Of a DNA stretch of 64,000 nucleotides, positions 656-49,560 are shown in pieces. The translations under genes were made by a program, and so were the position numbers. Origin of the DNA: Alteromonadaceae bacterium Bs31 (lineage in GTDB: Bacteria > Pseudomonadota > Gammaproteobacteria > Pseudomonadales > Cellvibrionaceae); contig FXAI01000005.1 in the NCBI GenBank assembly GCA_900177435.1, forward strand, positions 233,897-297,896, given 5' to 3'. The notes beneath the pieces are model-generated. The model was not told the DNA's origin. It was given only the letters and a program-made list of their open reading frames with translations, and ran no database searches. How positions within the stretch are numbered: position 1 is the first letter of the stretch; every line of letters begins with the position of its first letter.

Positions 656-672
656 TTGGCATACCCGTTGCA
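656..672 (+). promoter_or_regulatory. Sigma-54 promoter of flagellin 1
   Basis: TTGGCATACCCGTTGCA matches the -24/-12 consensus TGGCAC-N5-TTGCA with one change (C to T) and the exact GG-N10-GC spacing. The predicted start of transcription is near 683, about 94 bases before the flagellin ATG. No convincing sigma-28 site was found in the same intergenic region. Confidence 0.75.
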
Positions 673-776
673 ATTTCCTCTGTGTATTCCTCTGCTGTTC
701 CAGAATGCTGACAGTCAGAAAGAATTAGTGCTATCACCACGCGGTGAATAGCGACTCATGTTACAGGAGAAAAATT

Positions 777-2519
777 ATGCCTTTAGTTATTAACACTAAC
801 GTTGCCGCACTTAATGCTCAGCGACAACTGGTTAATTCCGGTAATGATATGAGTCAAGCTATGGAGCGACTTGCGTCTGGTAAACGAATTAATACTGCTC
901 GTGATGATGCTGCTGGCTTGGCAATTTCTAACCGACAAACCTCTCAAATTCGTGGTTTGGACCAAGCCATCCGAAATGCAAACGATGGGGTCTCCCTAAT
1001 CCAGACCGCCGAAGGTGCGCTGGATGAGGTGACCAATATTTTGCAGCGAATGCGAGAACTTTCCATTCAGTCTGCTAACGGAATTTATTCTGATGTGGAC
1101 CGTTCTACACTCGATGCCGAGGCTCAACAGCTAAAAGCAGAAATCGATCGTATTGCATCCTCGACAACTTTTAACGGACAGCCCTTGCTGGACGGAAGCT
1201 TGAGTGACGTTGCATTGCAGGTGGGTTCCGAAGCGTATCAGACAATTGATTTGTCTATTCAAGGTTTTAGTACTTCCTCACTGGGCGGTACCTCGGGAGA
1301 CATTGTTGGTGAAGTTACACTAGCGGGCCTGGATTCTTTAACGGCATTCGATGGCACAGCGACAAACAGTATTACCGTTAATGATATTACTCTCAGTAGC
1401 CTAGCGGGTATTTCCGCTGCAGACTCAGTGAATGACGCCTTAGCGATAATTAATGCCGACCTGGATGGTAAAGGTGCGGAAGCTTCAACGCTGGTATCCG
1501 TCGAAGCGGACGCAGCAGGAAGTGGTGTACTGGCTGGTACCAATACCGTCGATATCGTTTTAACGGATGCCGATGGCAATGACCAGTCTTATGTAATATC
1601 AGGAACCAGCAACCTCATTGAATTAGCTGAGGCGATTAATTCAGATACTATTCTTGATGCAAAAATTAACGATGCCGGGAAATTAATTTTATCGGCTGAA
1701 AATGCTGAGAGTGTCAACATAACAGATGCTTCCGGAGCCACAGGTTTAGGCGCAGGGCAACTAGCAACAGATATCTTTTTTGCCCTGGTCTTTACCGACA
1801 CCAGTTCTGCCAGTAACGGTGTTAACTTTGTTACCGATGGCGCAACTGCAGATGTGCAAGCGCTGGGAATAAACACCCAGGATACCGAAGGCAACATTAT
1901 TGGTGTTGCCGGTATAGGTGAAACCAACACCGTACAAAAAGGCGATTTAATTATAAATGGTGTGGATGTCCCTAGCTTTACGGGTGTGGCAGGGGCTGCG
2001 GCAACTATCGATATTGCTATAGTTGCCATCAACTCCATCTCCGAGCAAACGGGCGTTGTTGCCTATGCAGAAACCACAACCACCATTGGTATGCGTTCCA
2101 CCAAGGGGAATGAAATATCGATTAAATACGGTGATGGTGCGACTGCTCAGGACGTATTGGATGCTACCGGTTTGCTCGAGCGAAATGCGCTTAGTGGCAG
2201 CGGGTCAGTTGCGGGTATCGCCATTGACACGGCAGAAGGTGCCCAGCAAGCCATTGATGTGATCGATGTTGCTCTTGAGCAAATTAACTCAACACGATCG
2301 GACCTCGGTGCAATTAACAACAGGTTAGACTTCACTATGAGCAACCTGGCCAATGTTTCCGAAAAAACCTCAGCCGCACGTTCCCGAATAGTGGATGCCG
2401 ATTTCGCATCTGAAACATCCGAGCTGAGCCGAGCACAGGTTTTACAGCAGGCCTCTCAAGCCATGTTGGCCCAGGCGAATGCCCAGCCCCAGCAGGTGCT
2501 TCAGCTTTTGCAGGGCTAG
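777..2519 (+). CDS. fliC: Flagellin 1
   Basis: Filament subunit, 580 residues, exported by the flagellar type III system. The N-terminal D0/D1 domain (residues 1 to about 165) is typical: MPLVINTNVAALNAQRQ, 'ASGKRIN', '[11 protein letters not shown]' and 'QRMRELSIQSANG'. The C-terminal D1/D0 domain (about 490-580) has '[11 protein letters not shown]' and '[11 protein letters not shown]' and ends in LLQG. The roughly 320-residue middle is acidic, rich in Thr/Ala/Gly/Asp and longer than in E. coli-length flagellins; it contains flagellin-IN-like repeats. A GTG 33 bases upstream is in frame, but the ATG at 777 follows 'caggag' at good spacing and begins the conserved N-terminus. Promoter is sigma-54 type, unlike the paralogue at 2903. 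Confidence 0.97.
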   Translation: MPLVINTNVAALNAQRQLVNSGNDMSQAMERLASGKRINTARDDAAGLAISNRQTSQIRGLDQAIRNANDGVSLIQTAEGALDEVTNILQRMRELSIQSANGIYSDVDRSTLDAEAQQLKAEIDRIASSTTFNGQPLLDGSLSDVALQVGSEAYQTIDLSIQGFSTSSLGGTSGDIVGEVTLAGLDSLTAFDGTATNSITVNDITLSSLAGISAADSVNDALAIINADLDGKGAEASTLVSVEADAAGSGVLAGTNTVDIVLTDADGNDQSYVISGTSNLIELAEAINSDTILDAKINDAGKLILSAENAESVNITDASGATGLGAGQLATDIFFALVFTDTSSASNGVNFVTDGATADVQALGINTQDTEGNIIGVAGIGETNTVQKGDLIINGVDVPSFTGVAGAAATIDIAIVAINSISEQTGVVAYAETTTTIGMRSTKGNEISIKYGDGATAQDVLDATGLLERNALSGSGSVAGIAIDTAEGAQQAIDVIDVALEQINSTRSDLGAINNRLDFTMSNLANVSEKTSAARSRIVDADFASETSELSRAQVLQQASQAMLAQANAQPQQVLQLLQG

Positions 2520-2539
2520 CCTGACTCTCCTATGTAAGG

Positions 2540-2569
2540 GGTGCGCCTTAGTTAGTTATAAGGTGCGCC
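2540..2569 (+). terminator. Hairpin after flagellin 1
   Basis: GGTGCGCCTTA (2540-2550) pairs with TAAGGTGCGCC (2559-2569) over 11 positions, two of them G-U, with an 8-base loop, 21 bases after the stop codon. There is no immediate T-run, but T-rich sequence follows near 2590. Probably a terminator or 3'-end stabiliser for a very abundant mRNA. Confidence 0.5.
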
Positions 2570-2732
2570 ATCTTACGCTTTATGTGCCTTTTTTATATTC
2601 CCACTGTTTTAGCTTCCTATTGATCTAAGCCTTAGTGAGTGAATTGGGGGGAATTATTCATTAAAAGCCCGTATGTTCTCTCTGTTATTTTTATGTAAGC
2701 TTATGAAAAACAAGGGGAAATACCTTATTAGT

Positions 2733-2766
2733 CCCTGCATATCAAAGTAAATAGCGGGGCTTTTTA
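2733..2766 (+). terminator. Weak terminator between the flagellin genes
   Basis: CCCTGC (2733-2738) pairs with GCGGGG (2754-2759), including one G-U, across a 15-base loop and is followed by CTTTTTATT. It sits just upstream of the sigma-28 site of flagellin 2. The rest of the 383-base gap (2520-2902) holds no gene that I can see. Confidence 0.35.
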
Positions 2767-2773
2767 TTCATAC

Positions 2774-2800
2774 TAAAGTTTATCCTGTATTAGCCGAAAA
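2774..2800 (+). promoter_or_regulatory. Sigma-28 (FliA) promoter of flagellin 2
   Basis: TAAAGTTT, 11 bases, GCCGAAAA: the -35 box matches the FliA consensus TAAAGTTT-N11-GCCGATAA perfectly and the -10 box differs at one base. Start of transcription would be near 2807, giving a leader of about 95 bases before the ATG at 2903. Confidence 0.85.
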
Positions 2801-2902
2801 GCTGGGTATGAGCGCCAAATCATATTAAAAAGGCGATCTACAAATAAGCAGCCGGACGTTTTAGGCTGGCATTTTTCAGAAACTTTAGATGGGAGGCTTA
2901 TC

Positions 2903-4666
2903 ATGCCTTTAGTAGTCAACAGTAACATTCCTTCACTGAACGCCCAGCGTCAGTTGCTGCAGTCCGGCGCAGACTTGGATAAAGCCAGTGAACGTTTGGC
3001 ATCCGGTAAACGCATTAACTCTGCGGCGGATGACGCGGCGGGTCTTGCCATTTCCAACCGTCAAACGTCTCAGATTCGCGGCCTCGACCAGGCAATTCGA
3101 AATGCAAACGACGGTATTTCACTTATTCAAACCGCCGAAGGAGCATTGGACGAAACAACCAATATTCTTCAACGTATGCGTGAGCTGGCCATTCAGTCAG
3201 CTAACGGCATCTACTCCGATGCAGATAGGGGTACTCTGGATGCAGAAGTTCAGCAGTTAAAAGCTGAAATTGATCGTATTGCCGATACAACCGCTTTTAA
3301 CGGCCAAAATATTCTAGATGGCTCCCTGGGAGATGTAGCCTTGCAGGTTGGTTCTGAATCCAATCAAACCATCGACCTTTCCATTGACGGTTTTAATACC
3401 AATTCATTGGGTGGATCTGCGGGTGATATCGTTGGTGAAGCATCCGGAGGTCTTGCATCCTTGCAAGCATTTACCGGTGCTGCAGCGGATAACACGCTGT
3501 ACATCAATGATGTGGCTTTGAGCACCCTTGCCAATGCCACAACGGTAAATGAGGCAATGACCACCATCAACTCAGACCTGGACGGTAAAGGTGCGGAAGC
3601 GTCTTCCCTCGTTTCCTACACTGCGAACGACACTGGTGACGGTCAGTTAATTGCCGGTACAGATAATTTGGTTATCACCGTTGTGGATGGCGATGGCGAA
3701 ACCCAAGCCTACTCCATTACTGGTACCAATAGTTTGCAGGAATTAGCGGATAAAATATCTTCAGATACCACAGTTACGGCCTCCATAAGCGATAAAGGAA
3801 AGCTTGTTTTAAGTCAGGAAAACGCGACCTCCATTGTCGTTACTGACGGCGCAGGAACCGAAGCGGCAGACGCAGCAGGTATCGATGGCGCTGAATTAAC
3901 GAATTTCCGTTTAGTGCTAACAGACACCAGTGCTGATAAAAGCGGCGTGAAAGTGGAAGGCGGTGATGACACAGCGGCTACTGCTAACATGATGACCCTG
4001 GTTCAGGCTGCAGGCCTGGATGTACAGGACGACATGGGTAATCTGCAAGGTTCAGATATTGCCAACAGTGCAGGCCTTAATGCGGGTGACCTTATTATTA
4101 ATGGCGTAGAAATCGGTGCAGTTGCAAACGAAGCAAGCGTCGGTGCACAGCGAACGTCTTTAATTGAAGCGATAAACAAACTTAGCAGCGAAACTGGTGT
4201 AGTTGCATCGATAGGTGTGAATGATGGTGCTGCCGGTATTGCCTTAAGTTCGGTAACGGGCGACCTGAGCATTAAGTACGGTGACAATACTACTGCGGCG
4301 ATAGTCTTCGGTGATACCGGTTTGCAGGAGCGTAATTCCGCTGCAGGTGCTGGCTCAATTGCTGGTGTTAGCGTGGGAAGCGAGTCCAAGGCACAGGCAG
4401 CGATAGGTACCATCGACACCGCTCTAGAGCAAATCAACGCCACTCGCGCAGATTTGGGTGCGATTAATAACCGCCTCGACTTTACTGTATCCAACCTGGG
4501 TAATGTATCTGAAAACACCTCAGCTGCTCGATCTCGAATCGTGGACGCTGACTTCGCTTCAGAAACGGCAAACCTCAGCAGGGCACAGGTACTGCAGCAG
4601 GCTTCACAGGCAATGTTGGCGCAGGCTAATGCACGGCCTCAACAAGTACTTTCACTCTTACAGTAA
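2903..4666 (+). CDS. fliC: Flagellin 2
   Basis: Second filament subunit, 587 residues. The N-terminal ~165 and C-terminal ~95 residues are nearly the same as in flagellin 1 ('[21 protein letters not shown]', '[19 protein letters not shown]'), showing paralogy by duplication. The middle keeps the same layout (several '[11 protein letters not shown]' and 'GDLIINGVE' type segments shared in order) but has diverged strongly. Start ATG follows 'gggagg' at good spacing. It is driven by a sigma-28 promoter, so it should appear after hook completion, later than flagellin 1. FlaG follows 90 bases downstream. Confidence 0.97.
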
Positions 4667-4698
4667 CCTGAAGGTAAGTACACCAAAAGGTAACTTGG

Positions 4699-4732
4699 TT
4701 CCCCGGTTTGCGTTCTACTAGCAACTGGGGAA
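4699..4732 (+). terminator. Hairpin between flagellin 2 and flaG
   Basis: TTCCCC (4699-4704) pairs with GGGGAA (4727-4732); inner bases (GGTT with AACT) extend the stem. There is no T-run. It could act as an mRNA 3' barrier or partial terminator that keeps flaG expression below that of flagellin. Confidence 0.35.
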
Positions 4733-4755
4733 TTAAGGGAGAAGAGGGTTAACCC

Positions 4756-5148
4756 ATGATTGAAGTACGAAATACAGCACCAGCACCGCTACAGTCAGCT
4801 GTGCCTGCTTCATCAAAGGGGGCTGTTGAAGCTCGGAGTACTGGTGGCAATAATTTGCCGAGTACTATTGAAAACCAGACAAAAAATTCCGCAGACGAGG
4901 TGTCACAAGCACCGAAGCGAGAGGAGCCGAAACTGGAGTCGGCGGTTGCAACAATTAGCGATTATGTGCAATCCATTCAAAGGGATCTACAATTTTCAAT
5001 AGATGATGAGCTTGAAAAAACCGTAATTAAAGTGGTCGATGGTGATTCGGGAGAATTGATTCGACAGATTCCAGAAGAAGCGTTTCTGGAGTTGGCACGG
5101 AAGTTGAGAGAAGACGGAGAGTTACGGTTGGTGAATGCGCTTGGATAA
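4756..5148 (+). CDS. flaG: FlaG-family protein
   Basis: 130 residues. The N-terminal half (to about residue 65) is polar and poorly conserved; the C-terminal half has the FlaG family pattern: 'LQFSIDDELEKTVIKVVDGDSGELIRQIP' split over residues ~76-104, then a short helical end. FlaG proteins influence filament length in polar flagellates and usually lie between flagellin and fliD, as here. The ATG is preceded by a purine-rich 'gggagaagaggg'. Likely read from the sigma-28 promoter of flagellin 2, past the hairpin at 4699. Confidence 0.9.
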   Translation: MIEVRNTAPAPLQSAVPASSKGAVEARSTGGNNLPSTIENQTKNSADEVSQAPKREEPKLESAVATISDYVQSIQRDLQFSIDDELEKTVIKVVDGDSGELIRQIPEEAFLELARKLREDGELRLVNALG

Positions 5149-5162
5149 CACCGGTTAATTCA

Positions 5163-5228
5163 CTCTGGCTCAGCCAGAGATGAGGAAGGCGATAGGAAGG
5201 CGCGTGGAAAATCTACGCGTCTTTTGTT
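5163..5228 (+). terminator. Two hairpins after flaG
   Basis: CTCTGGC/GCCAGAG (5163-5179, loop TCA) is a perfect 7-bp hairpin 15 bases after the flaG stop. A second one, CGCGT/ACGCG (5201-5219), is followed by TCTTTTGTT. The second is the better candidate for a rho-independent terminator. No promoter with good spacing was found between it and fliD. Confidence 0.45.
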
Positions 5229-5323
5229 CATTTTTCAGCTCTGTATTTTTGGTTTTAAGCAGCACTTAAAGTACCGCTGTTGTTTATAAGGAAGTAAAGA
5301 ATGGTTGGTGAACGGAGAAGTAT

Positions 5324-7411
5324 ATGATTGATAACAATATTATCCAGTCGATTGGTGCCGGTTCCGGCATCGATACCTCCAACCTTACCAAACAGTTAAC
5401 GGAAATAGAGCGTGCGGCGCCACAAAATCGCATTGACACCAAGCGAGATAAAGCCGAAACGCAAATATCAGATTACGGCCTAATGAGCAACGCAATGGCC
5501 ACACTTCAAGATGCAGCCAATGTGTTAAGTGAGCCGGAAGGTTTATTCAGTAAATCTGCATCATTTACTCAGAGTAATGCTCTGGTTCCAGTTGAGTTAG
5601 ACACAGAAGTCCAACCCGGAACTTACACATTCACTGTAGAAGCTATCGCCAGTTCGCAATCCCTGACATCAGCATCGTTTGCTGCGCCTACGGATGCGGT
5701 AGGCGAAGGGGTTTTAACCTTTCGTTTTGGTAATGCCACAGTAGATGGTGCAGGCGCCATGCTTGCTCTCGACGGCTTCAGCCAGGATTTGGAGGCTGAC
5801 GAGGTCGACATTACCATTGACAGTAATAATAATTCTCTGGAAGGCCTGCGTGACACTATCAATGAGGCTGATTTTGGCGTTCAGGCCAGTATAGTAAACG
5901 ATGGTTTGAATGGTTACGTACTGCAGATTACGGCTGAATCGGGCGCTAATAATGAAATAGAAATATCCGTCGCTGAGGCGGGCGGTTCACCGACAGACAA
6001 CGACAATACCGGATTAAGCCGTTTTACCTTTAACGAAACTGCTTCGCAGTTAATACAAAAACAGGGAGGTCAGGACGCCGAGTTAAGCATTAATGGCTTA
6101 ACCGTGTATCGGGAATCCAATACTATCGATGACATAGTCGAGGGTTTGAAACTCGACATATTGGAGCCAGATCCCGGAACACCAATTACCATCACAATAA
6201 CCGATGACAAAGCCTTCGCAGAGCAAAATATTCGCGATTTTGTCGAAGCCTATAATTTATTCCTTGAAGCCATAGAACCCGCAATTGGCACTAAAGAGCA
6301 GGAAAACGAGGACGGGGATAATGAGAGAGTTATTGGTTCTTTGGCGAACGATGCGCTGGCTAAATCCATGTTGTCACAAATTAGAAGCGTTATTGGTAGC
6401 GCAACGCCTGGTTTAGCCGACTCAAGATATACCTCCTTGGGCGCTATAGGTATTCGTACAGAGCTGGACGGTACAATGAGTATCGATGATAAGTCCCTCA
6501 GCGAAGCTTTTGAAAAAGATTTTGAAGCTGTTCAAAAACTGTTTGCGCCCAATGTCACAACCAGTGACAACGACATTTACATTAACAGTTATAACGATTA
6601 CACCAGCGCGGGCGAATATGACATTGAGGTGACTACCGCGCCCTCAAAAGGTAACTATGAGGGTGGTACGCTGGGTGGAATAACAGCGTTTCCTGATTTT
6701 GATACAAGTGGCCAAGTCTACGAGTTTAGTATCGCCGTAAATGGTACTGCGTCCGGCATTATTACTATCGCCGAAGCAAGCTATGCCGATCAGGATGCCC
6801 TGGCCGCGGCTATTCAGGCAGGGATAAATAACGATAGCAATATCTCTGACGACGGTGCATCCGTAAGCGTTAGCTATAACTCAGATAATAATCGCTTTGA
6901 TATTGTTTCTAATAAATACGGTTCCTCCTCACAGGTAACCGTATTAACCGCACATACAGACATCGAGACCGACCTGGGCTTAGCGGTTGCTGCTGGCACG
7001 GCGGGCACTACTGTGGCAGGTACTGTGAATGGCACCGCCGGTTTCGGTTCTTCGAACGTTTTATTGCCCGCGATAGGACAGCCCGGTGAAGGTTTGGCGC
7101 TTATTGTTGGTGAGTCGGCGACAAGCGCAACCGTTAATTTCTCGCGCGGTTTTGCCGGTGAGTTAGATGCGCTACTCGAGGAGTTTTTGGGTGGCAATGG
7201 TTTGATTGCTACTCGGGAAACAAGCCTGGAAGATAGCCTGGATAAACTGGACGATGACCAGAAAAAGCTCGATCGTCGTATGTCTTCGTATGAGGAAAGA
7301 TTAATTAATCAATTTATAGCGATGGAGCGCATACTCGCCAGCCTTAATACCTCCGGCTCCTTTCTGGAAAACCTCATTGATACCTTGCCCTTCACCGCCA
7401 GTAGAGACTAA
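5324..7411 (+). CDS. fliD: Flagellar filament cap protein FliD
   Basis: 695 residues. FliD caps the growing filament and folds flagellin at the tip. The N-terminal coiled-coil part starts 'IIQSIGAGSGIDTSNLTKQL', typical of FliD_N (about residues 5-105). The FliD_C region follows, with 'AEQNIRDFVEAYN' near 305 and 'YTSLGAIGIRTELDGTMSI' near 370. The C-terminal coil ('DKLDDDQKKLDRRMSSYEERL', then 'RLINQFIAMERILASLN') is classic. At 695 residues it is longer than the common 450-480, because of an added Thr/Ala/Gly-rich middle (about 415-600), in step with the long flagellins. Start ATG follows 'cggagaag'. Confidence 0.96.
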   Translation: MIDNNIIQSIGAGSGIDTSNLTKQLTEIERAAPQNRIDTKRDKAETQISDYGLMSNAMATLQDAANVLSEPEGLFSKSASFTQSNALVPVELDTEVQPGTYTFTVEAIASSQSLTSASFAAPTDAVGEGVLTFRFGNATVDGAGAMLALDGFSQDLEADEVDITIDSNNNSLEGLRDTINEADFGVQASIVNDGLNGYVLQITAESGANNEIEISVAEAGGSPTDNDNTGLSRFTFNETASQLIQKQGGQDAELSINGLTVYRESNTIDDIVEGLKLDILEPDPGTPITITITDDKAFAEQNIRDFVEAYNLFLEAIEPAIGTKEQENEDGDNERVIGSLANDALAKSMLSQIRSVIGSATPGLADSRYTSLGAIGIRTELDGTMSIDDKSLSEAFEKDFEAVQKLFAPNVTTSDNDIYINSYNDYTSAGEYDIEVTTAPSKGNYEGGTLGGITAFPDFDTSGQVYEFSIAVNGTASGIITIAEASYADQDALAAAIQAGINNDSNISDDGASVSVSYNSDNNRFDIVSNKYGSSSQVTVLTAHTDIETDLGLAVAAGTAGTTVAGTVNGTAGFGSSNVLLPAIGQPGEGLALIVGESATSATVNFSRGFAGELDALLEEFLGGNGLIATRETSLEDSLDKLDDDQKKLDRRMSSYEERLINQFIAMERILASLNTSGSFLENLIDTLPFTASRD

Positions 7412-7434
7412 TTAAGCGGTTTATTGGTGCATAT

Positions 7435-7450
7435 ATTGCGTGCACGAAAC
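7435..7450 (+). promoter_or_regulatory. Possible sigma-54 promoter of the methyltransferase gene
   Basis: TGGTGCATATATTGCG keeps GG-N10-GC spacing and a perfect TTGC, but the -24 box is TGGTGC instead of TGGCAC. It lies 24 bases after the fliD stop and 58 before the next ATG. Weaker than the other sites in the window. Confidence 0.35.
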
Positions 7451-7508
7451 CTGCGGAGCGCTGTTTGGCCGCAAGCTGCCAATTTGAATAATCAGTACGG
7501 GAGTCTTA

Positions 7509-9518
7509 ATGCATTACCAATCCGCTGCGAATAAGGTAAACCCGAGAGGGAATAGCAAGCCTGTAACTCTGTGGTTTGAAGAGGCGATTGATAGGTACAC
7601 CAAGGGAAACCTCAAGGCAGCCAGGTCGCTGGCAAGTAGGGCCTTTAAGAAAAACCCTGACGATGCAAACGTGGAGTTTTTATACGGTTTATGTGCCGAG
7701 AAGGATGGTAATTCCACTGCGGCGATAAAACACTACCAAAATGCAATTGCTATTGGCGCTGAGTCCTTTGTTTACAAAAAGCAGCTTGCCGACTTATATC
7801 AGCGCTTAGCTAGTTTTGCATCCGCAGAAAAAATCTATCTAGAACTAAAAGCAGAACAGCCAGATAATAAAAAGATGTTGGAAAATATGGCCTTGAACTG
7901 GGCCGGAATGGGTAAGCATCTCAACAGCTTTTTACTGTACAAAGAAATGTATGATCTTGGTATTCTTGATAAAAAAAATCAGCCTAAGATGGCAGCAATG
8001 TTGGCTCAAGTAAAAGAGTCTGAACTCAGCGAGTCTCTTGAGGCCGCATTACTCACTACGCTGAGTTTTGACAATGTTTGCCATATTTTACTGTCTCAGC
8101 CCATTAGCCGGTACCTGACTAAAAAATTCGCGGGCTTGACTGAATTTAACCAAAAGGCTTTTGAGTCGCTAGTGCTAGACCCGCTATTTAACGCTGCGCT
8201 ATCAAGGTTGGTACTGGTGGGTGTTGCGCTTGAAAAAATAACACAAAAAGCTCGAGAGTTGATTCTGTGCCAAGCCTTGAGCGGGCAAACCCTCAGCCCT
8301 GTTTATACAGCGTTTGCGGCAAATATCGCCCGGCAGGCGGAGTTAAAAGAGTACGTGTTGTTTGTGGGAGATACAGAGCAGCAGCTATTAAAACAGCTGG
8401 AAGACCTGCTGGCTATTCAAGCGCTTAAGCCGGCTTGGTCTCCTGTGGATAGTGAGCTGATTTTACTCTGTCTCAGCATGTACACGCGTCTATCTAGCCT
8501 TAAATGTAGCGATAAATTTAGTGCAGTTGTTCTCGAAAAATGGCCAAACTTACTTCAGAGCATTGTAAAGTCGACAATTTTCGATGTCGAAGATGAAATA
8601 GCTCTTGCCGCAAAGGTGAGCTCATTAACACCGATAAAAGATGGGGTGTCATCCAGTGTTCAAGGTCAGTATGAGGAGAGCCCCTATCCACGTTGGGCAT
8701 CGGTCAATCACCACGCTCCACTTACTCCCCGTTCTTTCCTGAAAGCGCAATTTCCGTGGATAGAAGCTCCTGAGTCATTCACCAATTCCAGTATCGATGT
8801 GCTGGTCGCTGGGTGTGGTACCGGTAGGCAACCGGTTGAAATGGCCATGATGTTGCCTGGAAGTCGCATTTTTGCAATAGACCTCAGTCGCAGAAGTCTT
8901 GCCTATGCGAAAAGAAAAGCGAAAGAATTTGGGCTGAAAAATATTGAATTCCACCATGCAGATATTTTAAATCTCGGAGAGCTGAATAAAACCTTTGACC
9001 TGATTGTATCTACCGGTGTAATTCATCACATGGCGGAGCCTAATGCCGGCTGGGCAGTACTACGTGATTTACTGCGCGACGATGGTCTCTTGCATCTTGC
9101 TCTCTATAGCGCCGTTGCGCGAGAAGAAGTGAGAAAGCAAAGGGAGTTTATTTCAAAGCTCAAGCTGGAGCCCAGTGCGGAGAATATCCGCAAGTACCGA
9201 CAGGCAATGATGGATCGGGAGCCCAACAATAAACTCTATAAATACCACGATTTCTGGACAATGAGTGAATGCAGGGACCTGCTTTTTCATGTGCAGGAAC
9301 ACCAGTACACCTGGCTGGGTATAAAGCAGGCGTGTGACACCCTGGCGATGAAATTTCGTGGTGTGCAGGCCCCGGCAAAAATAATGAACAGGTTTTCTAA
9401 GCAGTTCGCGGATAATGATTCAAAAATGGATTTGACGTGTTGGCATGCCTTCGAGTTAAACAATCCAGCAGCCTTCAGTGGTATGTATAGCTTTTTGTGT
9501 TCAAAGGCACAAGCTTAA
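7509..9518 (+). CDS. TPR protein with SAM-dependent methyltransferase domain
   Basis: 669 residues. The N-terminal part (about 15-160) is helical with TPR-like repeats ('LYGLCAEKDGNSTAAIKHYQNAI'-type units). A long helical spacer follows. The C-terminal class I methyltransferase begins near residue 430, with motif I 'VLVAGCGTGRQP', acidic strand end 'IFAIDLSRRSL', 'FHHADIL' and motif IV-like 'LIVSTGVIHHM'. Such TPR-methyltransferases occur in glycan or protein modification loci. Lying between fliD and fliS, it may methylate flagellin side chains or a flagellin glycan, with the TPR part holding the substrate. That is inference from position; no nearby sugar-synthesis genes support the glycan version. 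It could instead be a general protein methyltransferase. Confidence 0.8.
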   Translation: MHYQSAANKVNPRGNSKPVTLWFEEAIDRYTKGNLKAARSLASRAFKKNPDDANVEFLYGLCAEKDGNSTAAIKHYQNAIAIGAESFVYKKQLADLYQRLASFASAEKIYLELKAEQPDNKKMLENMALNWAGMGKHLNSFLLYKEMYDLGILDKKNQPKMAAMLAQVKESELSESLEAALLTTLSFDNVCHILLSQPISRYLTKKFAGLTEFNQKAFESLVLDPLFNAALSRLVLVGVALEKITQKARELILCQALSGQTLSPVYTAFAANIARQAELKEYVLFVGDTEQQLLKQLEDLLAIQALKPAWSPVDSELILLCLSMYTRLSSLKCSDKFSAVVLEKWPNLLQSIVKSTIFDVEDEIALAAKVSSLTPIKDGVSSSVQGQYEESPYPRWASVNHHAPLTPRSFLKAQFPWIEAPESFTNSSIDVLVAGCGTGRQPVEMAMMLPGSRIFAIDLSRRSLAYAKRKAKEFGLKNIEFHHADILNLGELNKTFDLIVSTGVIHHMAEPNAGWAVLRDLLRDDGLLHLALYSAVAREEVRKQREFISKLKLEPSAENIRKYRQAMMDREPNNKLYKYHDFWTMSECRDLLFHVQEHQYTWLGIKQACDTLAMKFRGVQAPAKIMNRFSKQFADNDSKMDLTCWHAFELNNPAAFSGMYSFLCSKAQA

Positions 9519-9544
9519 TTATAAATAAATATTATGGGAGCCAC

Positions 9545-9571
9545 TAATGATTACACCATACTGGCCGATAG
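9545..9571 (+). promoter_or_regulatory. Sigma-28 (FliA) promoter of the first fliS
   Basis: TAATGATT, 11 bases, GCCGATAG. The -35 box matches 6/8 and the -10 box 7/8 of the FliA consensus with correct spacing. It lies 34 bases before the GTG start of fliS. Confidence 0.65.
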
Positions 9572-9605
9572 CCTTTGAGTAGTTACTTAAAATCGTGAGG
9601 TTGTT

Positions 9606-9983
9606 GTGAACGCGCAATTTGCTGTTGATTCTTATACTAAAGTACATCGCCAGGCCAATGCGGGGGTTGCATCGCCGCATAAATTGATTGATATGCTATA
9701 TGAAGGCGCTCTGGAAAGAATCTCTCAAGCTAAAGGCGCAATTCAATATGACAATATAGAATTACGCGGCCACAAAATTAATTCTGCGATTGCCATTATT
9801 GGCGGTTTACGTACCAGCCTCAATCCTGAGCAGGGTGGAGATATTGCCGAAAACCTCGATGCCCTCTATGTGTATTTGCAAACCATTCTCGCAAAAGCCC
9901 ACCGCACGGTGGATGTAGAGTTACTGGATGAGGCGTCAAAGCTACTGGGTGATATGAGAGACACCTGGAACCAAATCGCTTAA
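9606..9983 (+). CDS. fliS: Flagellin chaperone FliS (copy 1)
   Basis: 125 residues, the usual FliS length. FliS binds the C-terminal helices of flagellin in the cytoplasm and prevents early polymerisation. Visible family features: 'YTKVHRQANAGVASPHKLIDMLYEGALERI' (split at residues ~9-38), 'HKINSAIAIIGGLRTSLNPEQGGDIAENLDALYVY' and a helical C-terminus. The GTG start follows 'gtgagg' at workable spacing. Preceded by a sigma-28 site, like flagellin 2. About 45% similar by eye to the second copy at 10206. Confidence 0.93.
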   Translation: MNAQFAVDSYTKVHRQANAGVASPHKLIDMLYEGALERISQAKGAIQYDNIELRGHKINSAIAIIGGLRTSLNPEQGGDIAENLDALYVYLQTILAKAHRTVDVELLDEASKLLGDMRDTWNQIA

Positions 9984-10061
9984 ATATATCTCTTAGCGCT
10001 TAGTAAGCACTAGAAGTAAAAAAACTATTATCCAGCACTTCGCCCAGCGATGGCTTCAGCA

Positions 10062-10076
10062 GCCTGCAACGCAGGC
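10062..10076 (+). terminator. Hairpin after fliS copy 1
   Basis: GCCTGC-AAC-GCAGGC, a perfect 6-bp stem with a 3-base loop, 79 bases after the fliS stop. Short CTTC/GAAG arms flank it and could lengthen the fold. There is no T-run, so termination is uncertain. Confidence 0.3.
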
Positions 10077-10118
10077 CTTCCAGAAGACGCTACGCGGCGC
10101 TAAAAAAAAACCATTTTC

Positions 10119-10134
10119 TGGCACCTTCCCTGCA
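10119..10134 (+). promoter_or_regulatory. Sigma-54 promoter of the second fliS
   Basis: TGGCACCTTCCCTGCA: perfect -24 box, -12 box CTGCA, exact GG-N10-GC spacing. Predicted start of transcription is near 10145, giving a leader of about 60 bases before the ATG at 10206. Confidence 0.8.
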
Positions 10135-10156
10135 TTACACTCAAAACTAAGTAAAC

Positions 10157-10186
10157 AGCGGCATTTTTCCGCCGCTCAATTTTTTT
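10157..10186 (+). terminator. Hairpin and T-run inside the fliS2 leader
   Basis: AGCGGC (10157-10162) pairs with GCCGCT (10171-10176), loop ATTTTTCC, followed by CAATTTTTTT. It looks like a rho-independent terminator but lies between the sigma-54 start site (~10145) and the AGGAGG at 10195. It may end read-through from fliS1, attenuate fliS2, or both. Confidence 0.5.
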
Positions 10187-10205
10187 GGAATATCAGGAGG
10201 TAGCC

Positions 10206-10589
10206 ATGTCCGTGGCCCCAACTCTCGCAGCAAAAGAAATGGAAGAAAATGCTGATACTCTTTCATCTCACCGTGTAATTTCTTTACTTCTCGATGGCGC
10301 TTTGGAGCGTGTTTCTCAGGCAAAAGCTTGTGTGCGAGACGGTAATGAAACTGACAAAGTTATCCTTATCTCAAAATTAATCGGCATCGTTAATGGCTTG
10401 CGTCAATCCTTGAATATGGATCAAGGTGGTGCTATCGCGGTAAACCTGGAAAAGCTTTATCTTTATATGGCTGATCGTCTTGCCGCTTGCGAAAATGAAG
10501 AAGAGTTGCATGTACTTTCCGAAATTGGCGAGCTGATCGGTAATGTGAAGCAGGGCTGGGATGCGATAGCAGAACCCCAGGCAGGTTAA
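10206..10589 (+). CDS. fliS: Flagellin chaperone FliS (copy 2)
   Basis: 127 residues from the ATG at 10206, which has a perfect AGGAGG five bases upstream; an in-frame TTG 21 bases earlier is less likely. FliS features: 'SSHRVISLLLDGALERVSQAKACV', 'ISKLIGIVNGLRQSLNMDQGGAIAVNLEKLYLYM' (split) and a helical end. Two FliS copies beside two flagellins suggest one dedicated chaperone each. This copy has a sigma-54 promoter, like flagellin 1. It differs from copy 1 mainly at the N-terminus, the part that contacts flagellin in known FliS structures (family knowledge), which would fit distinct partners. Confidence 0.92.
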   Translation: MSVAPTLAAKEMEENADTLSSHRVISLLLDGALERVSQAKACVRDGNETDKVILISKLIGIVNGLRQSLNMDQGGAIAVNLEKLYLYMADRLAACENEEELHVLSEIGELIGNVKQGWDAIAEPQAG

Positions 10590-10638
10590 AATACCGTTTT
10601 TTATAGTGGTGCTTCTCGAAGATCCGATCTAAAGTTAT

Positions 10639-10699
10639 AGTCTCCTTGGCCGTTAACAGTGTTGTAACAACACTGTTTGCCGTCGACTTTAAGGAGACT
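10639..10699 (+). promoter_or_regulatory. Folded leader that covers the RBS of the FliT-like gene
   Basis: AGTCTCCTT (10639-10647) is the exact reverse complement of AAGGAGACT (10691-10699), which contains the ribosome-binding site. Between them sits a perfect 10-bp hairpin, AACAGTGTTG-TAA-CAACACTGTT (10655-10677), and GGC/GCC arms (10648-10650, 10679-10681) can pair as well. The whole is a nested stem that would hide the Shine-Dalgarno sequence. A second pairing, TAAAGT (10630-10635) with ACTTTA (10686-10691), could compete with it. Confidence 0.65.
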
Positions 10700-10701: not shown

Positions 10702-10989
10702 ATGTCTGTTATTCCTGCCAGTTTTACATCGCTAGTAAGAACTCGTCGTTCTCTGGAAAAAGCCTATCAATCGGGTGATTGGGAATCGGTTCGAGAAGTG
10801 GATGTACTATTGGGGGATTGCCTCAATCGCGCCTTTGATGACAGTGACCGCGATACCACAGTGCTTATTGAAGAGCTGGAAAAGGTCTTGCGTCTTTATG
10901 CCAACATCGTATCCACTTTGCCCGTTCAGGGCGTAGCTGCGGACTTAAAAATTGGTAACACACTTCAAAATAATCCTCCTCTGGATTGA
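10702..10989 (+). CDS. Small FliT-like flagellar protein
   Basis: 95 residues, predicted all-helical: 'SLVRTRRSLEKAYQSGDWESVREVDVLL' (split) then 'TTVLIEELEKVLRLYANIVS'. In polar flagellates the gene after fliS usually codes for a FliT-type chaperone, which guards FliD and can bind regulators. Length, helical pattern and position fit, but sequence identity to FliT is too weak by eye to give a symbol. ATG 10702 follows AAGGAGA at ideal spacing, and that site lies inside the folded leader at 10639-10699, so translation may be controlled. Confidence 0.75.
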   Translation: MSVIPASFTSLVRTRRSLEKAYQSGDWESVREVDVLLGDCLNRAFDDSDRDTTVLIEELEKVLRLYANIVSTLPVQGVAADLKIGNTLQNNPPLD

Positions 10990-11182: not shown

Positions 11183-12643
11183 ATGCTCTACGACAAAGAA
11201 ATCCTGGTAATCGAAGACAACGAGTCTTCCAGACACGACCTTGCTGTTGTTTTCAAATTTCTTACCGAGCAGGCACGCGCGGTCTCTTTTGCACAGTGGG
11301 AAAAAATGGCGCCAGAATTTAAGGCCTGCTGTCTGCCTGGCAGCGAGCGTGAACTGGGGGTGGTCTTCATTGGTTCCTGCGCGGCAGAGGTGGATATAAA
11401 AACCCATTTGGACACTATACGCACTGCCTGTGATAGCGCTCCCGTCGTTCTCATTGGAGAGCAGGAGGTATCTGACGATTGGGACCCCTACACCAAGCAC
11501 ATGGTTATAGAGACCCTCTCCTGGCCGGTTAGTTACACCGAGATGCTCAATGTCATACACCGGGCGCAAAGGTACAACGAGGCTCAAGCGCGTCAGAAAA
11601 TGGAAAAACACCAGCGACCGGTTCACTTGTTTCGCAGCCTTGTTGGCACCAGCCGGGAAATCCAGGCTGTGCGAGCGATGATGTCTCAGGTGGCGGACAA
11701 AGATGTAACCGTGCTGATAGAAGGTGAATCCGGAACGGGTAAGGAAGTTGTTGCTCGTAACCTCCATTACCATTCGGCGCGAAGAGACGGCCCTTTTGTG
11801 CCTGTGAACTGCGGGGCCATTCCTGCAGAGTTATTGGAAAGTGAATTGTTTGGCCATGAAAAAGGTGCATTCACTGGGGCAATAAATTCGAGGGCAGGGC
11901 GGTTTGAGCTGGCGGAAGGCGGAACGTTATTCCTGGATGAAATTGGAGATATGCCGCTGCACATGCAGGTGAAGATTCTGCGTGTATTGCAGGAAAAGAG
12001 CTATGAACGTGTAGGCGGCAACAAAACCTACAAAACCGATGTACGAATTATTGCTGCAACTCATCGTAACCTGGAAAAAATGATTGAAAGTGGTGGCTTT
12101 CGCGAAGACCTCTATTACCGGCTTAACGTATTCCCCATAGGTATGCCCTCTTTACGAGACAGAGCGGAAGATATCCCTCTGTTGATCAATGAGTTGATCT
12201 CCCGCTTGGAGAGCGAAAAACGTGGCTCAGTGCGTTTTAATTCTGCCGCCATTATGTCGCTGTGTGGCCATCCCTGGCCTGGAAATGTGCGTGAGCTGGC
12301 AAACCTGGTTGAGCGAATGGCAATCATGAATCCATTTGGCATAGTGGGTGTTCAGGATTTGCCAAAAAAATACCGTCACGTGGAAGATGCTGAAGATAGC
12401 GAAGAGTTTGAGGTTTTTGCGGAGGAGTCTAGAAAACCAACCATTGTAGGAGAAGGTGATATCGCCTTACTGCCGGAAAACGGCATCGACCTTAAAGAAT
12501 ACATTGCCGGGCTTGAGCAGAGCCTGATTCAGCAAGCATTGGATAATACCGGGGGAGTTGTGGCTCGTGCTGCAGAGCAGCTCACCATACGCAGAACAAC
12601 CCTGGTAGAAAAAATGCGCAAATATGGCCTGCAACGGGGATAA
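11183..12643 (+). CDS. fleQ: Flagellar master regulator FleQ (FlrA)
   Basis: 486 residues, sigma-54 activator at the top of the flagellar cascade. The N-terminal FleQ domain (1 to ~130) resembles a receiver but has 'VVFIGSC' where the phospho-Asp would be, as in other FleQ proteins. The AAA+ domain (~150-390) has 'HLFRSLVG' with the LFRS motif (149-152) that binds c-di-GMP in Pseudomonas FleQ, Walker A GESGTGKE (181-188), the sigma-54 loop GAFTGA (228-233) and 'LFLDEIGDM' Walker B. A Fis-type helix-turn-helix is at the end ('[22 protein letters not shown]'-type, ~458-480). The start ATG has a poor RBS. The usual next genes, fleSR, are displaced by purC. Confidence 0.96.
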
Positions 12644-12771: not shown

Positions 12772-13875
12772 ATGAGCCTTGCAGAGCGCGTTCTTTCCGT
12801 TAATAACGACCTGCCCATCCGCACCGACCAAGCCGTTCACAGCGGCAAAGTTCGCTCCGTCTATTGGCTAAGCGAAGCTGACAGTAAGCGCCTGATAAAG
12901 GAGCGTGCATACAATGTTGCCGCCGATGCACCTTTGGCGATTATGGTGATTAGCGATCGTATTTCTGCCTTTGATTGTATCTGGCATGGTGAGGGCGGTA
13001 TGAACGGTGTACCAGGAAAAGGCGCTGCCTTGAATGCCATATCAAATCACTGGTTTCGACTGTTTCGTGAACAGGGTCTGGCTAACAGCCACATTCTTGA
13101 CATACCACACCCGTTTGTGTGGATTGTGCAGAAAGCTAAGCCTGTAATGATAGAAGCCATATGCCGTCAGTACATTACCGGTTCTATGTGGCGAGCCTAC
13201 AGTAAGGGCGAGCGGGACTTTTGTGGTATCCAGCTACCTGAAGGGCTGCAAAAGGATCAACAGCTACCAGAGTTGCTGATTACACCCTCCACCAAGGGTA
13301 TTTTGAAGGGCATCCCTGGCGTGCCAGAAGCGGATGATGTAAACATTACCCGCGCAAACATTGAACAAAATTTTCAGGCCTTCAATTTTCAAAATGCCAG
13401 TGACATCGACCTCTATGAAAAGCTACTCAAAGAAGGTTTTGATGTAATTACTGCTGAGCTGCAAAAGTTGGATCAAATTTTTGTAGATACCAAGTTTGAG
13501 TTCGGCTATGTGACCAACGCTGCGGGTGAGCAAGAGCTCATATATATGGATGAAGTGGGTACCCCGGACTCGTCCAGAATATGGGATGGTGCACATTACA
13601 GAGAAGGCAAGGTTATTGAAAAGTCTAAAGAGGAATTCCGCCAGCAGCTGCTTAATTATTTTCCAGACCCGGATATTCTGTTGAACAAAGACCGAATGGC
13701 GGAGCGTAGCAGTTTGGCGCGAGACACCGCATTGCCGGAGGAAATCCTTATGCAGATTTCGGCAACGTATACTCAGATTGCTGAAAAAATTACCGGTCAA
13801 TCACTTACCCTATCTGACAACCCCAAAGCAGAAATTATCGATGTGCTTGGCCGCGAGTATGGCTTGATCGTTTAA
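12772..13875 (+). CDS. purC: SAICAR synthase PurC (long form)
   Basis: 367 residues. Phosphoribosylaminoimidazole-succinocarboxamide synthase joins CAIR and aspartate in purine synthesis. Motifs: '[10 protein letters not shown]' near 24, '[14 protein letters not shown]' near 63, '[12 protein letters not shown]' near 130, '[15 protein letters not shown]' near 232 and '[14 protein letters not shown]' near 260. This is the ~367-residue type found beside or instead of the ~240-residue PurC in many gammaproteobacteria. It has no known link to motility; it lies between fleQ and fleSR, with its own terminator. The leader contains a GGGG/CCCC hairpin (about 12713-12733) and a possible -10 TATCAT near 12692. 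No PurR box was seen. Confidence 0.95.
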
Positions 13876-14036: not shown

Positions 14037-14052
14037 TGGCACTAGGCTTGCA
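14037..14052 (+). promoter_or_regulatory. Sigma-54 promoter of fleSR
   Basis: TGGCACTAGGCTTGCA: a perfect match to TGGCAC-N5-TTGCA. Start of transcription would be near 14064, some 45 bases before fleS. FleQ/FlrA-driven sigma-54 expression of fleSR/flrBC is established in Pseudomonas and Vibrio. Confidence 0.88.
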
Positions 14053-14108: not shown

Positions 14109-15332
14109 TTGCAGCCAGAACAACTGCTCCACCTTGCCGCGAACACCACGACAGAAATGGGCGATCGACACGAAAGCCTGGCGGCGGCGTTTGAGTTTTT
14201 TAATGATACATCGCAACAGCTTATGCGATCGTATCGCCTGCTGGAAAATAAAGTGCAGCAGCTCACGGCTGAGCTGGACACGCTGAGCGCAGAGAAAGCC
14301 GATGCAGACAATCGACAGGCAGAAACAGCAAATCAGATGGCTGTTTTACTTAAGGTTATGCCTGCAGGGGTGATTGTTTTGGACAGCCGAGGCTACATAA
14401 TTGAAGCAAACGCAGCAGCGCAAACACTGTTGCAGCTTCCCCTAAAGGGACGCCTCTGGCGCGAAATAATCAGTGACTGTTTTGCTCCGCGCAATGACGA
14501 TGGTCTTGAAGTATCGACCAAGAGCGGGCGTCGGGTTAACCTGGCTACCAGCTCACTGGACACCGGCGAGCCCAGCTGCGTGGGTGGCCAGATTATCCTG
14601 CTTACCGACCTTACCGAAACACGGAAACTACAGCAGCACGTGAGCCGTTCCGAGCGGCTTTCCGCGATGGGAAAAATGGTTTCTGCGCTGGCCCATCAAA
14701 TACGAACGCCGTTGTCTGCAGCAATGCTCTACGCAGACCACCTGTGTGGGAATTCCTTACCTGAACCCAAGCGACACGATTTCTCCCGTAAATTACATAG
14801 CAGACTGCAGCACATGGAGCGGCAGGTGCGCGACATGCTGTTGTTCGTAAAAAGTGAGTTACCCCTTAATGACCTGTTGACTTGCGAGCAACTGGTCCAA
14901 GGTTTACAGGAGGCAGCAGAAGTAGCGCTCAGCTCCTCGAAGTGCCAGTGTCGCTGGCAGAATTTGTCCAGTGGCGGCTTGCTTAAGTGTCACCGGGAAG
15001 CATTGATAAGCGCATTGATGAACCTGCTGGAAAACAGCATTCAGGCGAGCGATGGCCCGGCAAGCATTGAAATAATCCTCGCAGGGGGGCAAGAGGCGTT
15101 CACCATTACCCTGCGAGATAAGGGGCCGGGAATACCGCCACAATTGTTGGCTTCGGCTTGCGAAATTTTTATGACCACCAAATCACAGGGTACAGGTTTG
15201 GGCTTGGCGGTGGTTCAGTCGGTTGTGCGTGCGCACGGAGGTAGCTTAGAGCTGCATTCTCCTGAAGGGGAAGGTTTGACGGTAGAAATTCAACTCCCGG
15301 TTCATCAGCTAGCGGCCGTGAGCAGTGTTTAA
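14109..15332 (+). CDS. fleS: Sensor histidine kinase FleS (FlrB)
   Basis: 407 residues from a TTG that follows CAGGAG (14093-14098) by about 10 bases; the next in-frame ATG (14157) has no RBS. A soluble kinase: coiled-coil segment (about 36-78), PAS domain (about 80-170), phospho-acceptor helix 'SALAHQIRTPLSA' with His196, and an ATPase domain with 'LMNLLENSIQASDG' (N box), 'LRDKGPGIPP' (G1) and 'KSQGTGLGLAVVQSV' (G2). No membrane segment, as for FleS/FlrB, which sense assembly state from the cytoplasm. It phosphorylates FleR, encoded 30 bases downstream in the same sigma-54 operon. Confidence 0.94.
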   Translation: MQPEQLLHLAANTTTEMGDRHESLAAAFEFFNDTSQQLMRSYRLLENKVQQLTAELDTLSAEKADADNRQAETANQMAVLLKVMPAGVIVLDSRGYIIEANAAAQTLLQLPLKGRLWREIISDCFAPRNDDGLEVSTKSGRRVNLATSSLDTGEPSCVGGQIILLTDLTETRKLQQHVSRSERLSAMGKMVSALAHQIRTPLSAAMLYADHLCGNSLPEPKRHDFSRKLHSRLQHMERQVRDMLLFVKSELPLNDLLTCEQLVQGLQEAAEVALSSSKCQCRWQNLSSGGLLKCHREALISALMNLLENSIQASDGPASIEIILAGGQEAFTITLRDKGPGIPPQLLASACEIFMTTKSQGTGLGLAVVQSVVRAHGGSLELHSPEGEGLTVEIQLPVHQLAAVSSV

Positions 15333-15362
15333 TTAATTCAAATTTATTTGTTGGAGAAAGTG

Positions 15363-47262: not shown

Positions 47263-47319
47263 ATTAAGCCATAGACCTGCATTTTCGTGACAATAAATTG
47301 TCGCTTTTTTGGGAATTCT

Positions 47320-49560
47320 ATGGCTGAAACCTTTTTCGAGCATCTTAAATCTCTCCCCGGTAACGTAAGCAGGGAAAGCACCGTCAGTGGCCTTCGCGGT
47401 GTGGGCCACGGCAACTTAAGTGCACCCATTCTACTCCTCATGCTTTTGGGGATGATGACCTTACCTTTACCCGCATTTCTGCTGGATATGTTTTTCTCGT
47501 TTAACATCGCTCTTTCCATTGTGGTGGTACTGGTGGCGGTCTACTCCTTACGTCCTCTGGATTTTGCTGTTTTCCCTACCATTTTGTTGATTTCTACTCT
47601 GTTGCGTCTTGCCTTAAACGTGGCCTCCACGCGAGTGGTGTTGTTAGAAGGGCATCAGGGTGGCGATGCAGCGGGAAAGGTCATTCAAGCCTTTGGCGAA
47701 GTGGTGATTGGCGGTAATTACGCTGTGGGGCTGGTGGTTTTCATCATTCTCATCATTATTAACTTTGTAGTGGTTACCAAGGGTGCGGGCAGGGTTTCAG
47801 AAGTCAGCGCTCGCTTTACTCTGGATGCCATGCCCGGTAAACAAATGGCCATTGATGCTGATTTGAACGCCGGTTTAATCGATCAGGAGGAAGCCCGAAC
47901 ACGTCGCGCAGATGTTGCCTCAGAGGCGGACTTCTACGGGGCTATGGATGGTGCCAGTAAGTTCGTGCGAGGTGATGCAGTCGCAGGCATTCTCATTCTG
48001 GTTATCAACATTATTGGTGGCCTGGGCATTGGTATGGTTCAGCACGACCTGGAATTTGCCGATGCGCTGGAAAAATACGTTCTGCTAACCATTGGCGATG
48101 GGCTGGTTGCGCAAATTCCTTCTCTGCTGCTTTCCACCGCGACCGCCATTATGGTGACGCGTGTTAACAGCTCAGAGGACATGAACCGCCAGGTGCTGTC
48201 GCAAATGTTCACCTCCCCAAAAGCCATGGCTGTTGCCGGTGCCATTTTGTTTGTTATGGGTATTATCCCGGGAATGCCCCATGTGCCTTTTGTAGGCTTG
48301 GCTGTCGTATGTGGATTTCTTGCCTACTTCATTCACTTCAAGCAACAACAGGTGGAAGTGGTGGAGGAGGGTGGCTTTCAGTCCGGAACATTTGGTGCTG
48401 TGCCGCATGTTGGCGCCGCTCCTCCCGGTGCGCCGCCGACAGGCTTGCCAGCACCAGAGGGCGGTGTCCCGGTTCCCGCCAATATGGAGCCCACAGAGGT
48501 GAGTTGGGACGATGTAACCCCGGTAGATATCATTGGTTTGGAAGTGGGCTACCGCCTGATTCCGCTGGTGGATAAAAGCCAGAATGGCGAATTGTTAGGC
48601 CGTATTAAAGGCGTGCGCAAAAAGCTCAGTCAGGATCTCGGTTTTCTGATCCCGGCCGTTCATATCCGTGACAACCTAGATCTCCTGCCCAGCGGCTATC
48701 GCATTACCTTAATGGGCGTAACAGTGGGAGAGGGCGAAGTTTTTCCTGACCGCTCGCTGGCCATTAACCCAGGGCAGGTGTTTGGCAAAGTGGAAGGCAC
48801 TGCAACCGTCGATCCCGCTTTTGGCCTGGAGGCGGTGTGGATTGATGAAGCACAGCGAGATAAAGCACAAACTCTCGGTTATACCGTGGTTGATGCCAGC
48901 ACGGTAGCCGCCACTCACCTCAATCAAATAATCCAAACGCACACCCACGAGCTGATCGGTCATGAAGACGTACAAAAGTGGCTGGACCTGCTGGCCGAGA
49001 AATCTCCCAAGCTGGTGGAGGAGCTGGTTCCCAACACGATTTCAGTAAATCAATTACTGAAGGTATTGCAGGCACTTCTTAAAGAGAAAGTGCCGGTGAA
49101 AGATATGCGCACCATTGCCGAGGCTCTGGCGGCGCATGGCTCGAAGAATCACGATACCACCTCCCTTACGGCCATTGCTCGGGCCTCGTTGGCAAGACAG
49201 ATTGTTCAAGGCATTGTTGGCCAGGACGTGAACATGCCGGTTATAACCTTTGATCCGGCACTGGAACAGTTGTTGCTACAGTCTGTTCAACAGGCACAAA
49301 AATCTGGCGCTGAAGACGGCGCACTGATAGAGCCACAGCTAGCAGAACGTTTGAACAACTCCCTGGTGGCAGCGGGTAAAAAACAGGAAATGGCAGGTAA
49401 GCCCATTGTTCTGTTGGTTGCCGCCCCCTTGAGGTCGATGATGGCCCAGTTTGTTCGTTTCAACATTCCGGACATGCAAGTGCTGGCCTACAACGAAGTG
49501 CCCGACAACAAGCAAATCACCATAGAAGCCAGTGTTGGCGGTGAAGTACTTAACGGCTGA
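47320..49560 (+). CDS. flhA: Export gate protein FlhA
   Basis: 746 residues from ATG 47320; the in-frame codon at 47287 lies near the possible promoter and is unlikely. Eight N-terminal membrane segments; the FHIPEP region is represented by '[29 protein letters not shown]' (split), '[13 protein letters not shown]', '[18 protein letters not shown]' and '[24 protein letters not shown]'-like segments. The cytoplasmic domain begins near 345. It has a Pro/Gly-rich insert (about residues 365-388) that makes it longer than the ~690-residue norm. It docks chaperone-bound cargo. 28 bases separate it from flhF. Confidence 0.97.
   Translation: [746 protein letters not shown]

Follow-up and report, generated by a model that had tools for sequence, protein, structure and literature searches.

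The window considered here is a 64,000-nucleotide stretch of the genome of Alteromonadaceae bacterium Bs31 (contig FXAI01000005.1, positions 233,897 to 297,896, forward strand), and its flagellar locus contains two flagellin genes and two genes of the chaperone family FliS. The gene order is flagellin A, flagellin B, flaG, fliD, a TPR-methyltransferase gene, fliS1, fliS2, a small gene which from the gene order we take to be fleP/fliT-like, and fleQ. One flagellin and one FliS are preceded by candidate sigma-54 promoters, the other flagellin and the other FliS by candidate sigma-28 promoters. A search of the whole genome yielded two copies of FliS and two flagellins of full length. Flagellin_C has a third but weak match, which lies immediately before the first base of the window and is read as FlgL. 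The main features are the following.

657..672, forward strand: sigma-54-like site of flagellin A, TGGCATACCCGTTGCA, weight-matrix score 16.8
777..2519, forward strand: flagellin A (sigma-54 class), ATG start, Pfam Flagellin_N and Flagellin_C
2502..2504, forward strand: codon of Q in the flagellin A tail ...VLQLLQG, from the sequence
2774..2800, forward strand: sigma-28-like site of flagellin B, 0 mismatches to TAAAGTTT-N11-GCCGAWAA
2903..4666, forward strand: flagellin B (sigma-28 class), Pfam Flagellin_N and Flagellin_C
4652..4654, forward strand: codon of S in the flagellin B tail ...VLSLLQ, from the sequence
9545..9571, forward strand: sigma-28-like site of FliS1, 3 mismatches
9606..9983, forward strand: FliS1, Pfam FliS (PF02561), 121 bits with a cut-off of 26.7
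9633-9635, 9774-9776 and 9783-9785, forward strand: FliS1 codons of Tyr10, Lys57 and Ser60, from residue tables
10119..10134, forward strand: sigma-54-like site of FliS2, TGGCACCTTCCCTGCA
10206..10589, forward strand: FliS2, a FliS paralogue, ATG behind AGGAGG, Pfam FliS, 86 bits
10224-10226, forward strand: FliS2 codon of Leu7, which stands where the FlhA-docking Tyr would be
10365-10367 and 10374-10376, forward strand: FliS2 codons of Leu54 and Lys57, equal to FliS1 positions 57 and 60
47287..49560, forward strand: FlhA, the export gate, with the FliS-docking cleft residues kept

Upstream regions were scored with sigma-54 and sigma-28 weight matrices written from consensus sequences. An earlier note on this DNA had assigned a sigma-54 site to flagellin A, a near-perfect sigma-28 site to flagellin B, and sigma-28 and sigma-54 sites to fliS1 and fliS2, respectively. 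The candidate sites of both flagellins agree with this, that of flagellin B without a single mismatch. The sigma-54 pattern has 4 matches in 64 kilobases against 0.38 expected, the pattern having been shaped post hoc on the window's own sites. For the sigma-28 pattern with at most 3 mismatches there are 4 matches in the window against 1.78 expected; taken by itself, the FliS1 site thus does not exceed chance. The assignment of the FliS promoters is settled by conservation across the family (Cellvibrionaceae). A further sigma-54-like site was observed at 14037-14052, before a fleS-like kinase open reading frame (ORF) at 14109, and a fourth at 61238-61253.

The flagellar regions of relatives were fetched and 250 bases upstream of each start were scanned with thresholds of at least 12 for sigma-54 and at least 11.5 for sigma-28. 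Candidate sigma-54 sites were found upstream of 38 of the 39 fliS2 genes, at -49 to -121 (2.1% in shuffled sequences). The lone fliS2 gene short of the threshold (L108) scores 11.6 and has another site at -257; the start of fliS2 in L118 was misplaced, and after re-anchoring the sigma-54 site is present. The fliS1 genes have candidate sigma-28 sites in 72 of 85 cases (shuffled 2.0%), and none of the 85 has a sigma-54 site within the scanned 250 bases. Thirteen fliS1 genes fall below the sigma-28 threshold, and two from the window's own genus, g1 of the genome set, score weakly, 8.6 in L036 and 11.1 in L037. The classes assigned to both fliS copies in the earlier note thus stand as predictions, with the three-mismatch site of fliS1 backed by its relatives. 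Genomes in which two full flagellins were read have, as a rule, one sigma-54 and one sigma-28 site. Taken together, the scans support a conserved promoter split in the FliS2-bearing genera.

FliS3, encoded after fleP, was considered as a sigma-54 copy and rejected: neither a sigma-54 nor a sigma-28 site was observed within 250 bases upstream of any of the 34 genes. Genera g14, g18, g21, g22 and g23 mostly have one flagellin (two in G045 and G068). Genera g20, g25 and g27 have at least two flagellins and no clear sigma-54 site. Each of three regions of g25 and g27 (L106, L107, L110) contains one FliS and a pair of flagellins that both have a sigma-28-like site, one of those in L110 being weak (11.8); in L106 and L107 fliS is on the opposite strand.

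In the tree of 164 FliS proteins FliS2 forms one clade with support 100/100. The other clades are FliS1, FliS3 (weaker, 36/96) and the FliS of second flagella. The FliS2 profile matches one copy each in 44 of the 144 family genomes, in 18 of 32 genera. Flagellin promoters were read in 79 of the 87 tabulated genomes; of the other eight (G008, G010, G014, G036, G054, G126, G140, G142), five carry FliS2 (G008, G010, G036, G140, G142). A sigma-54 flagellin was found in 57 of the 79 genomes, 39 with FliS2 (36 plus G035, G056 and G058) and 18 without. Hence all FliS2 genomes with promoters read carry a sigma-54 flagellin (39 of 39), and FliS2 occurs in none of the 22 genomes that have no sigma-54 flagellin, two of which (G030, G059) have one flagellin unclassed. 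Among the matches listed for 390 genomes sampled from the order, FliS2-type proteins occur only in G388 and G407, from a second family. These two are possibly contaminants, as one genome is marked 6% contaminated and the other is 64% complete. A related-locus search queried with FliS2 found none. The named loci were rejected as a new test set, since all 13 with FliS2 were already among the genomes used. A distinct FliS clade is encoded beside another fliD in five genomes of g9 and in G141 of g31 (L122-L126, L060). It seemingly belongs to a second flagellar system, and is the only FliS found in G021.

The FliS sites facing the flagellin tail differ between the two clades. In Helicobacter pylori, Arg56 of FliS bonds Leu512 of FlaB at the flagellin tail (PMC7248283). 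By alignment this arginine corresponds to position 60 in FliS1 numbering. Position 60 is basic in all 39 FliS2, in all 41 FliS1 of genomes lacking FliS2, in 32 of 34 FliS3 and in all six second-system FliS; the last three groups, which comprise the family FliS other than FliS2 and the FliS1 of FliS2 genomes, give 79 of 81. It is also basic in the aligned FliS that we take to be those of Salmonella, Bacillus subtilis, H. pylori and A. aeolicus, read by eye, with two of the species names presumed. The FliS1 of FliS2 genomes have the basic residue at position 57 in 44 of 44 cases and at position 60 in one of 44, that is, one helical turn earlier than in FliS2, where position 57 is Leu in 39 of 39. 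Of the 44 alignment columns that are conserved among FliS1, FliS2 shares 24, including Leu68, Gly77 and Tyr88 of the tail pocket (FliS1 numbering).

The flagellins differ at the residue just before the terminal Leu-Leu. In FliS2 genomes it is Q in 37 of 39 sigma-54 flagellins and S in 37 of 38 sigma-28 flagellins. This comparison covers flagellins whose upstream DNA was complete and whose score reached 590 bits, leaves out g20, g23, g25 and g27, and keeps two flagellins of unclear class outside the class counts. We infer that this residue neighbours the Arg56-type contact. The alignments support the view that differences in the flagellin tails go along with differences in the tail sites of FliS.

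This link to promoter class contrasts with the rest of the flagellin gene. In the full-length flagellin tree, with the last six residues removed, the starred branches force at least 12 changes of the sigma-54 label among FliS2 genomes, and several pairs from the same genome are sisters. Despite these changes the Q/S residue still follows promoter class. Trees of the N-terminal 150 residues and of the C-terminal 89 residues require 6 and 7 changes, respectively, but both have little resolution, with 15 starred inner branches among 118 and 6 among 117. It looks as if the middles of the flagellin genes are homogenised within genomes and the ends, including the FliS-binding tail, track promoter class, which suggests selection on the ends.

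The second difference between the clades concerns docking on the export gate. Tyr10 of Salmonella FliS inserts into FlhA, where it bonds Asp456, and the source calls it absolutely conserved and indispensable for complex formation with FlhA (PMC5932034). The Y7A,Y10A mutant of B. subtilis FliS behaves like a fliS deletion (PMC6070490), and Tyr substitutions in FliS hamper docking, secretion or motility (PMC5932034, PMC6070490, PMC8527033). By alignment, the docking Tyr is present in 85 of 85 FliS1, 34 of 34 FliS3 and six of six second-system FliS, that is, in all 125 proteins outside FliS2. It is present in none of the 39 FliS2, and three further FliS2 also lack it. No Tyr occurs within 16 residues before the SPH-like anchor in 38 of the 39 FliS2. 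In the window, FliS1 has Tyr10 and FliS2 has no docking Tyr. The AlphaFold2 model of FliS2 has pLDDT 93 and the FliS fold, and its best matches are FliS structures, with 6lea at the top (TM 0.93 by target). FliS2 is thus best described as a FliS-fold paralogue rather than as an established export chaperone.

The earlier note had suggested two matched flagellin-chaperone pairs. The matching itself is partly supported, by the promoter split, the co-occurrence, and the fit between tails and FliS sites. Two equivalent export chaperones are unlikely, as FliS2 lacks the FlhA-docking Tyr, and therefore the early FliS is probably not a standard export chaperone. The pairing is also weakened by genus g9, whose sigma-54 flagellins occur without FliS2, and by S. 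oneidensis, where one FliS binds both flagellins.

The reading we favour, with a probability of roughly 0.45, is that FliS2 holds the early flagellin A and docks poorly on FlhA, with FliS1 as the export chaperone. The two fliS genes would be ancient paralogues between which one job was divided. FliS1, under sigma-28 and with the docking Tyr, would be the regular export chaperone and would serve mainly the late flagellin B. FliS2, under sigma-54, would be produced together with flagellin A during hook building and would bind its tail. As FliS2 would dock poorly without the Tyr, it may keep this flagellin in solution up to the switch of the gate. The first, hook-proximal part of the filament would then be built from flagellin A, perhaps after hand-over to FliS1. 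The starting points, read off the sequences, are the promoter split, the separate FliS clades, the loss of Tyr in FliS2 only, the mutually exclusive placing of the basic residue and the Q/S difference; from them we infer the binding preferences, the weak docking, the holding and hand-over, and the position in the filament.

Several observations weigh against this reading. In 18 genomes, all from g9, sigma-54 flagellins are present but FliS2 is absent; 16 of these genomes have FliS3. The FliS2 genomes form one clade by their FliS1 (44 rows, 99/94). Each FliS change therefore counts as a single event, and the joint presence of FliS2 and sigma-54 flagellins is weak as independent evidence. Position 32 (FliS1 numbering), which corresponds to the aromatic Tyr28 of H. 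pylori, is occupied by Tyr or Phe in all 44 FliS1 of FliS2 genomes and by Leu or Met in 37 of 39 FliS2; since this residue of the tail pocket is mostly lost, binding of flagellin by FliS2 is not assured. Among 11 further records outside the matched family genomes, position 60 has a basic residue in 8, whereas L248, L256 and L284 have none there; a basic position 60 is thus not universal. Two FliS2 genomes, G037 and G001, depart from the Q rule. Judged by row names, Q is also found where FliS2 is absent, in 7 of 18 sigma-54 flagellins, and one sigma-28 flagellin has it as well; the difference between 37 of 39 and 7 of 18 has a Fisher p of 1e-5 with kinship ignored. Within a genome the two flagellins have on average 85% identity over their last 60 residues (38 pairs), which could allow a single FliS to bind both. 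Indeed, the one FliS of S. oneidensis bound both flagellins in a two-hybrid test (PMC3120886). Finally, FliS2 could dock via other residues, given its own conserved N-terminal motif.

This last point leads to the strongest alternative, which we nevertheless consider rather unlikely: FliS2 may serve flagellin A as a complete export chaperone, docking via its N-terminal motif or another surface, so that two export routes run in parallel. The promoter match and the tail code would fit it too. The FliS2 N-terminus is conserved and not decayed: in the motif M[SAT][VI]xxTxAA, M1 is invariant, and T6, A8 and A9 each reach 90% or more across 32 rows. The AlphaFold2 model shows a helix from residue 7 to residue 14. 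On the other hand, the Tyr that FliS2 lacks is described as absolutely conserved, and its substitution impairs docking, secretion or motility. Moreover, the cleft of the window's FlhA is unchanged, being identical to the aligned FlhA of the Protein Data Bank (PDB) at I440, D456, F459 and L461 (counted by hand on the alignment).

A chiefly regulatory role of FliS2 is improbable; in that case it would be made before the hook is complete, bind FlgM or an early non-flagellin client and tune the release of sigma-28. Salmonella FliS does bind FlgM and lowers its secretion, and fliS is expressed there from a class 2 promoter during hook assembly (PMC8527033). The missing docking Tyr and the lost pocket aromatic would also fit a role outside export. 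However, the other residues of the tail pocket are kept, and the Q/S and 57/60 patterns point to flagellin as the client. We give equally little credence to FliS2 as a mere supply copy, any early FliS being sufficient and the residue changes being drift in one clade: the changes do map to single events, g9 does without FliS2, and the FliS of S. oneidensis binds both flagellins and that of S. putrefaciens is FliA-independent. However, the Tyr is lost in all 39 FliS2, the basic residue stands at 60 in all of these and at 57 in all 44 FliS1 of FliS2 genomes, and there is a new conserved N-terminal motif, all of which is unlike drift.

The favoured reading of FliS2 as a holder can be extended, more doubtfully, to a two-part code, in which promoter class, tail residue and docking ability would jointly set the order of filament assembly. 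The sigma-54 FliS without docking would then be a dedicated early holder, and the sigma-28 FliS, with its lysine shifted by one helical turn, would favour the late flagellin. In the course of evolution, holding and docking have apparently been divided between two FliS paralogues, and the single-residue differences make this testable. The case bears on how bacteria export several flagellins in order, and FliS2 offers a natural FliS clade without a residue described as absolutely conserved.

Other features of the locus are listed below.

7509-9518: TPR-methyltransferase, between fliD and fliS1
10630..10656, forward strand: sigma-28-like site of the fleP/fliT-like gene, 2 mismatches, repeated in many relatives
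10702..10989, forward strand: small fleP/fliT-like gene, so placed by its position before fleQ, no Pfam match
11183..12643, forward strand: fleQ/flrA, sigma-54 activator, Pfam FleQ and Sigma54_activat
12772-13875: purC-like gene between fleQ and the fleS-like ORF, names read by eye
14109-16820: fleS/fleR-like ORFs, names read by eye

A Pseudomonas review places fleP in class II in its text and in classes II and IV in its table (PMC8036289). A TPR-methyltransferase similar to that of the window was observed in five of the 91 fetched regions (L037, L044, L077, L106, L107), in the same place and on the same strand only in L037. A role in flagellin modification would be a guess.

Pairs of sigma-54 and sigma-28 flagellins with ordered assembly are known, and so are FliS duplicates, such as fliS1 and fliS2 of C. 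difficile. In the open-access literature, outside which most subscription papers lie, we found no report of a sigma-54/sigma-28 split of FliS within one genome, and none of a FliS clade without the docking Tyr or of a sigma-54-driven FliS that lacks it. As far as that literature goes, the statement of the earlier note that a parallel split of chaperones is not described holds.

With its -24/-12 site at 657-672, fleQ and fleS/fleR-like ORFs, the window has a candidate sigma-54 flagellin of the Vibrio/Shewanella type. In Vibrio cholerae flaA is a sigma-54 flagellin beside sigma-28 ones, as the earlier note had stated (PMC7064773). However, there the sigma-54 flagellin is the major one, and the accessible part of that paper does not mention FliS. 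The FlaA-FlaB pair of Shewanella putrefaciens and S. oneidensis is also similar: the upstream flagellin is FliA-independent and the downstream one depends on sigma-28, and the S. oneidensis gene order flaA-flaB-flaG-fliD-SO3234-fliS-flrA is similar to that of the window. In S. putrefaciens the early flagellin is made without FliA and placed near the hook (PMC6299084). The difference is that one FliS is described in Shewanella, which binds both flagellins in S. oneidensis and is FliA-independent in S. putrefaciens.

Two adjacent FliS genes, fliS and fliS' (FliS2 in P. aeruginosa), also occur in some P. aeruginosa strains. In six pairs of family f20, which from the gene order we presume to be of the Pseudomonas type, both copies keep the Tyr, unlike FliS2, and a sigma-28 site precedes the second copy; the first copy has no clear sigma-54 site in five of the six (L181 scores 13.1). 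Identity of FliS2 with Pseudomonas fliS' was rejected, as both copies of all six pairs keep the Tyr and fall outside the FliS2 clade. In P. putida KT2440 fliS is FliA-dependent, and in P. aeruginosa PAK it belongs to class II (PMC8036289). The FlaB/FliS/HP1076 system of H. pylori resembles the window in having two spatially separated flagellins and an RpoN-dependent partner of FliS (PMC7248283), but H. pylori has one FliS, and HP1076 is not a FliS. Finally, Salmonella fliDST has one gene with two promoters, whereas the window has two genes with one candidate promoter each.

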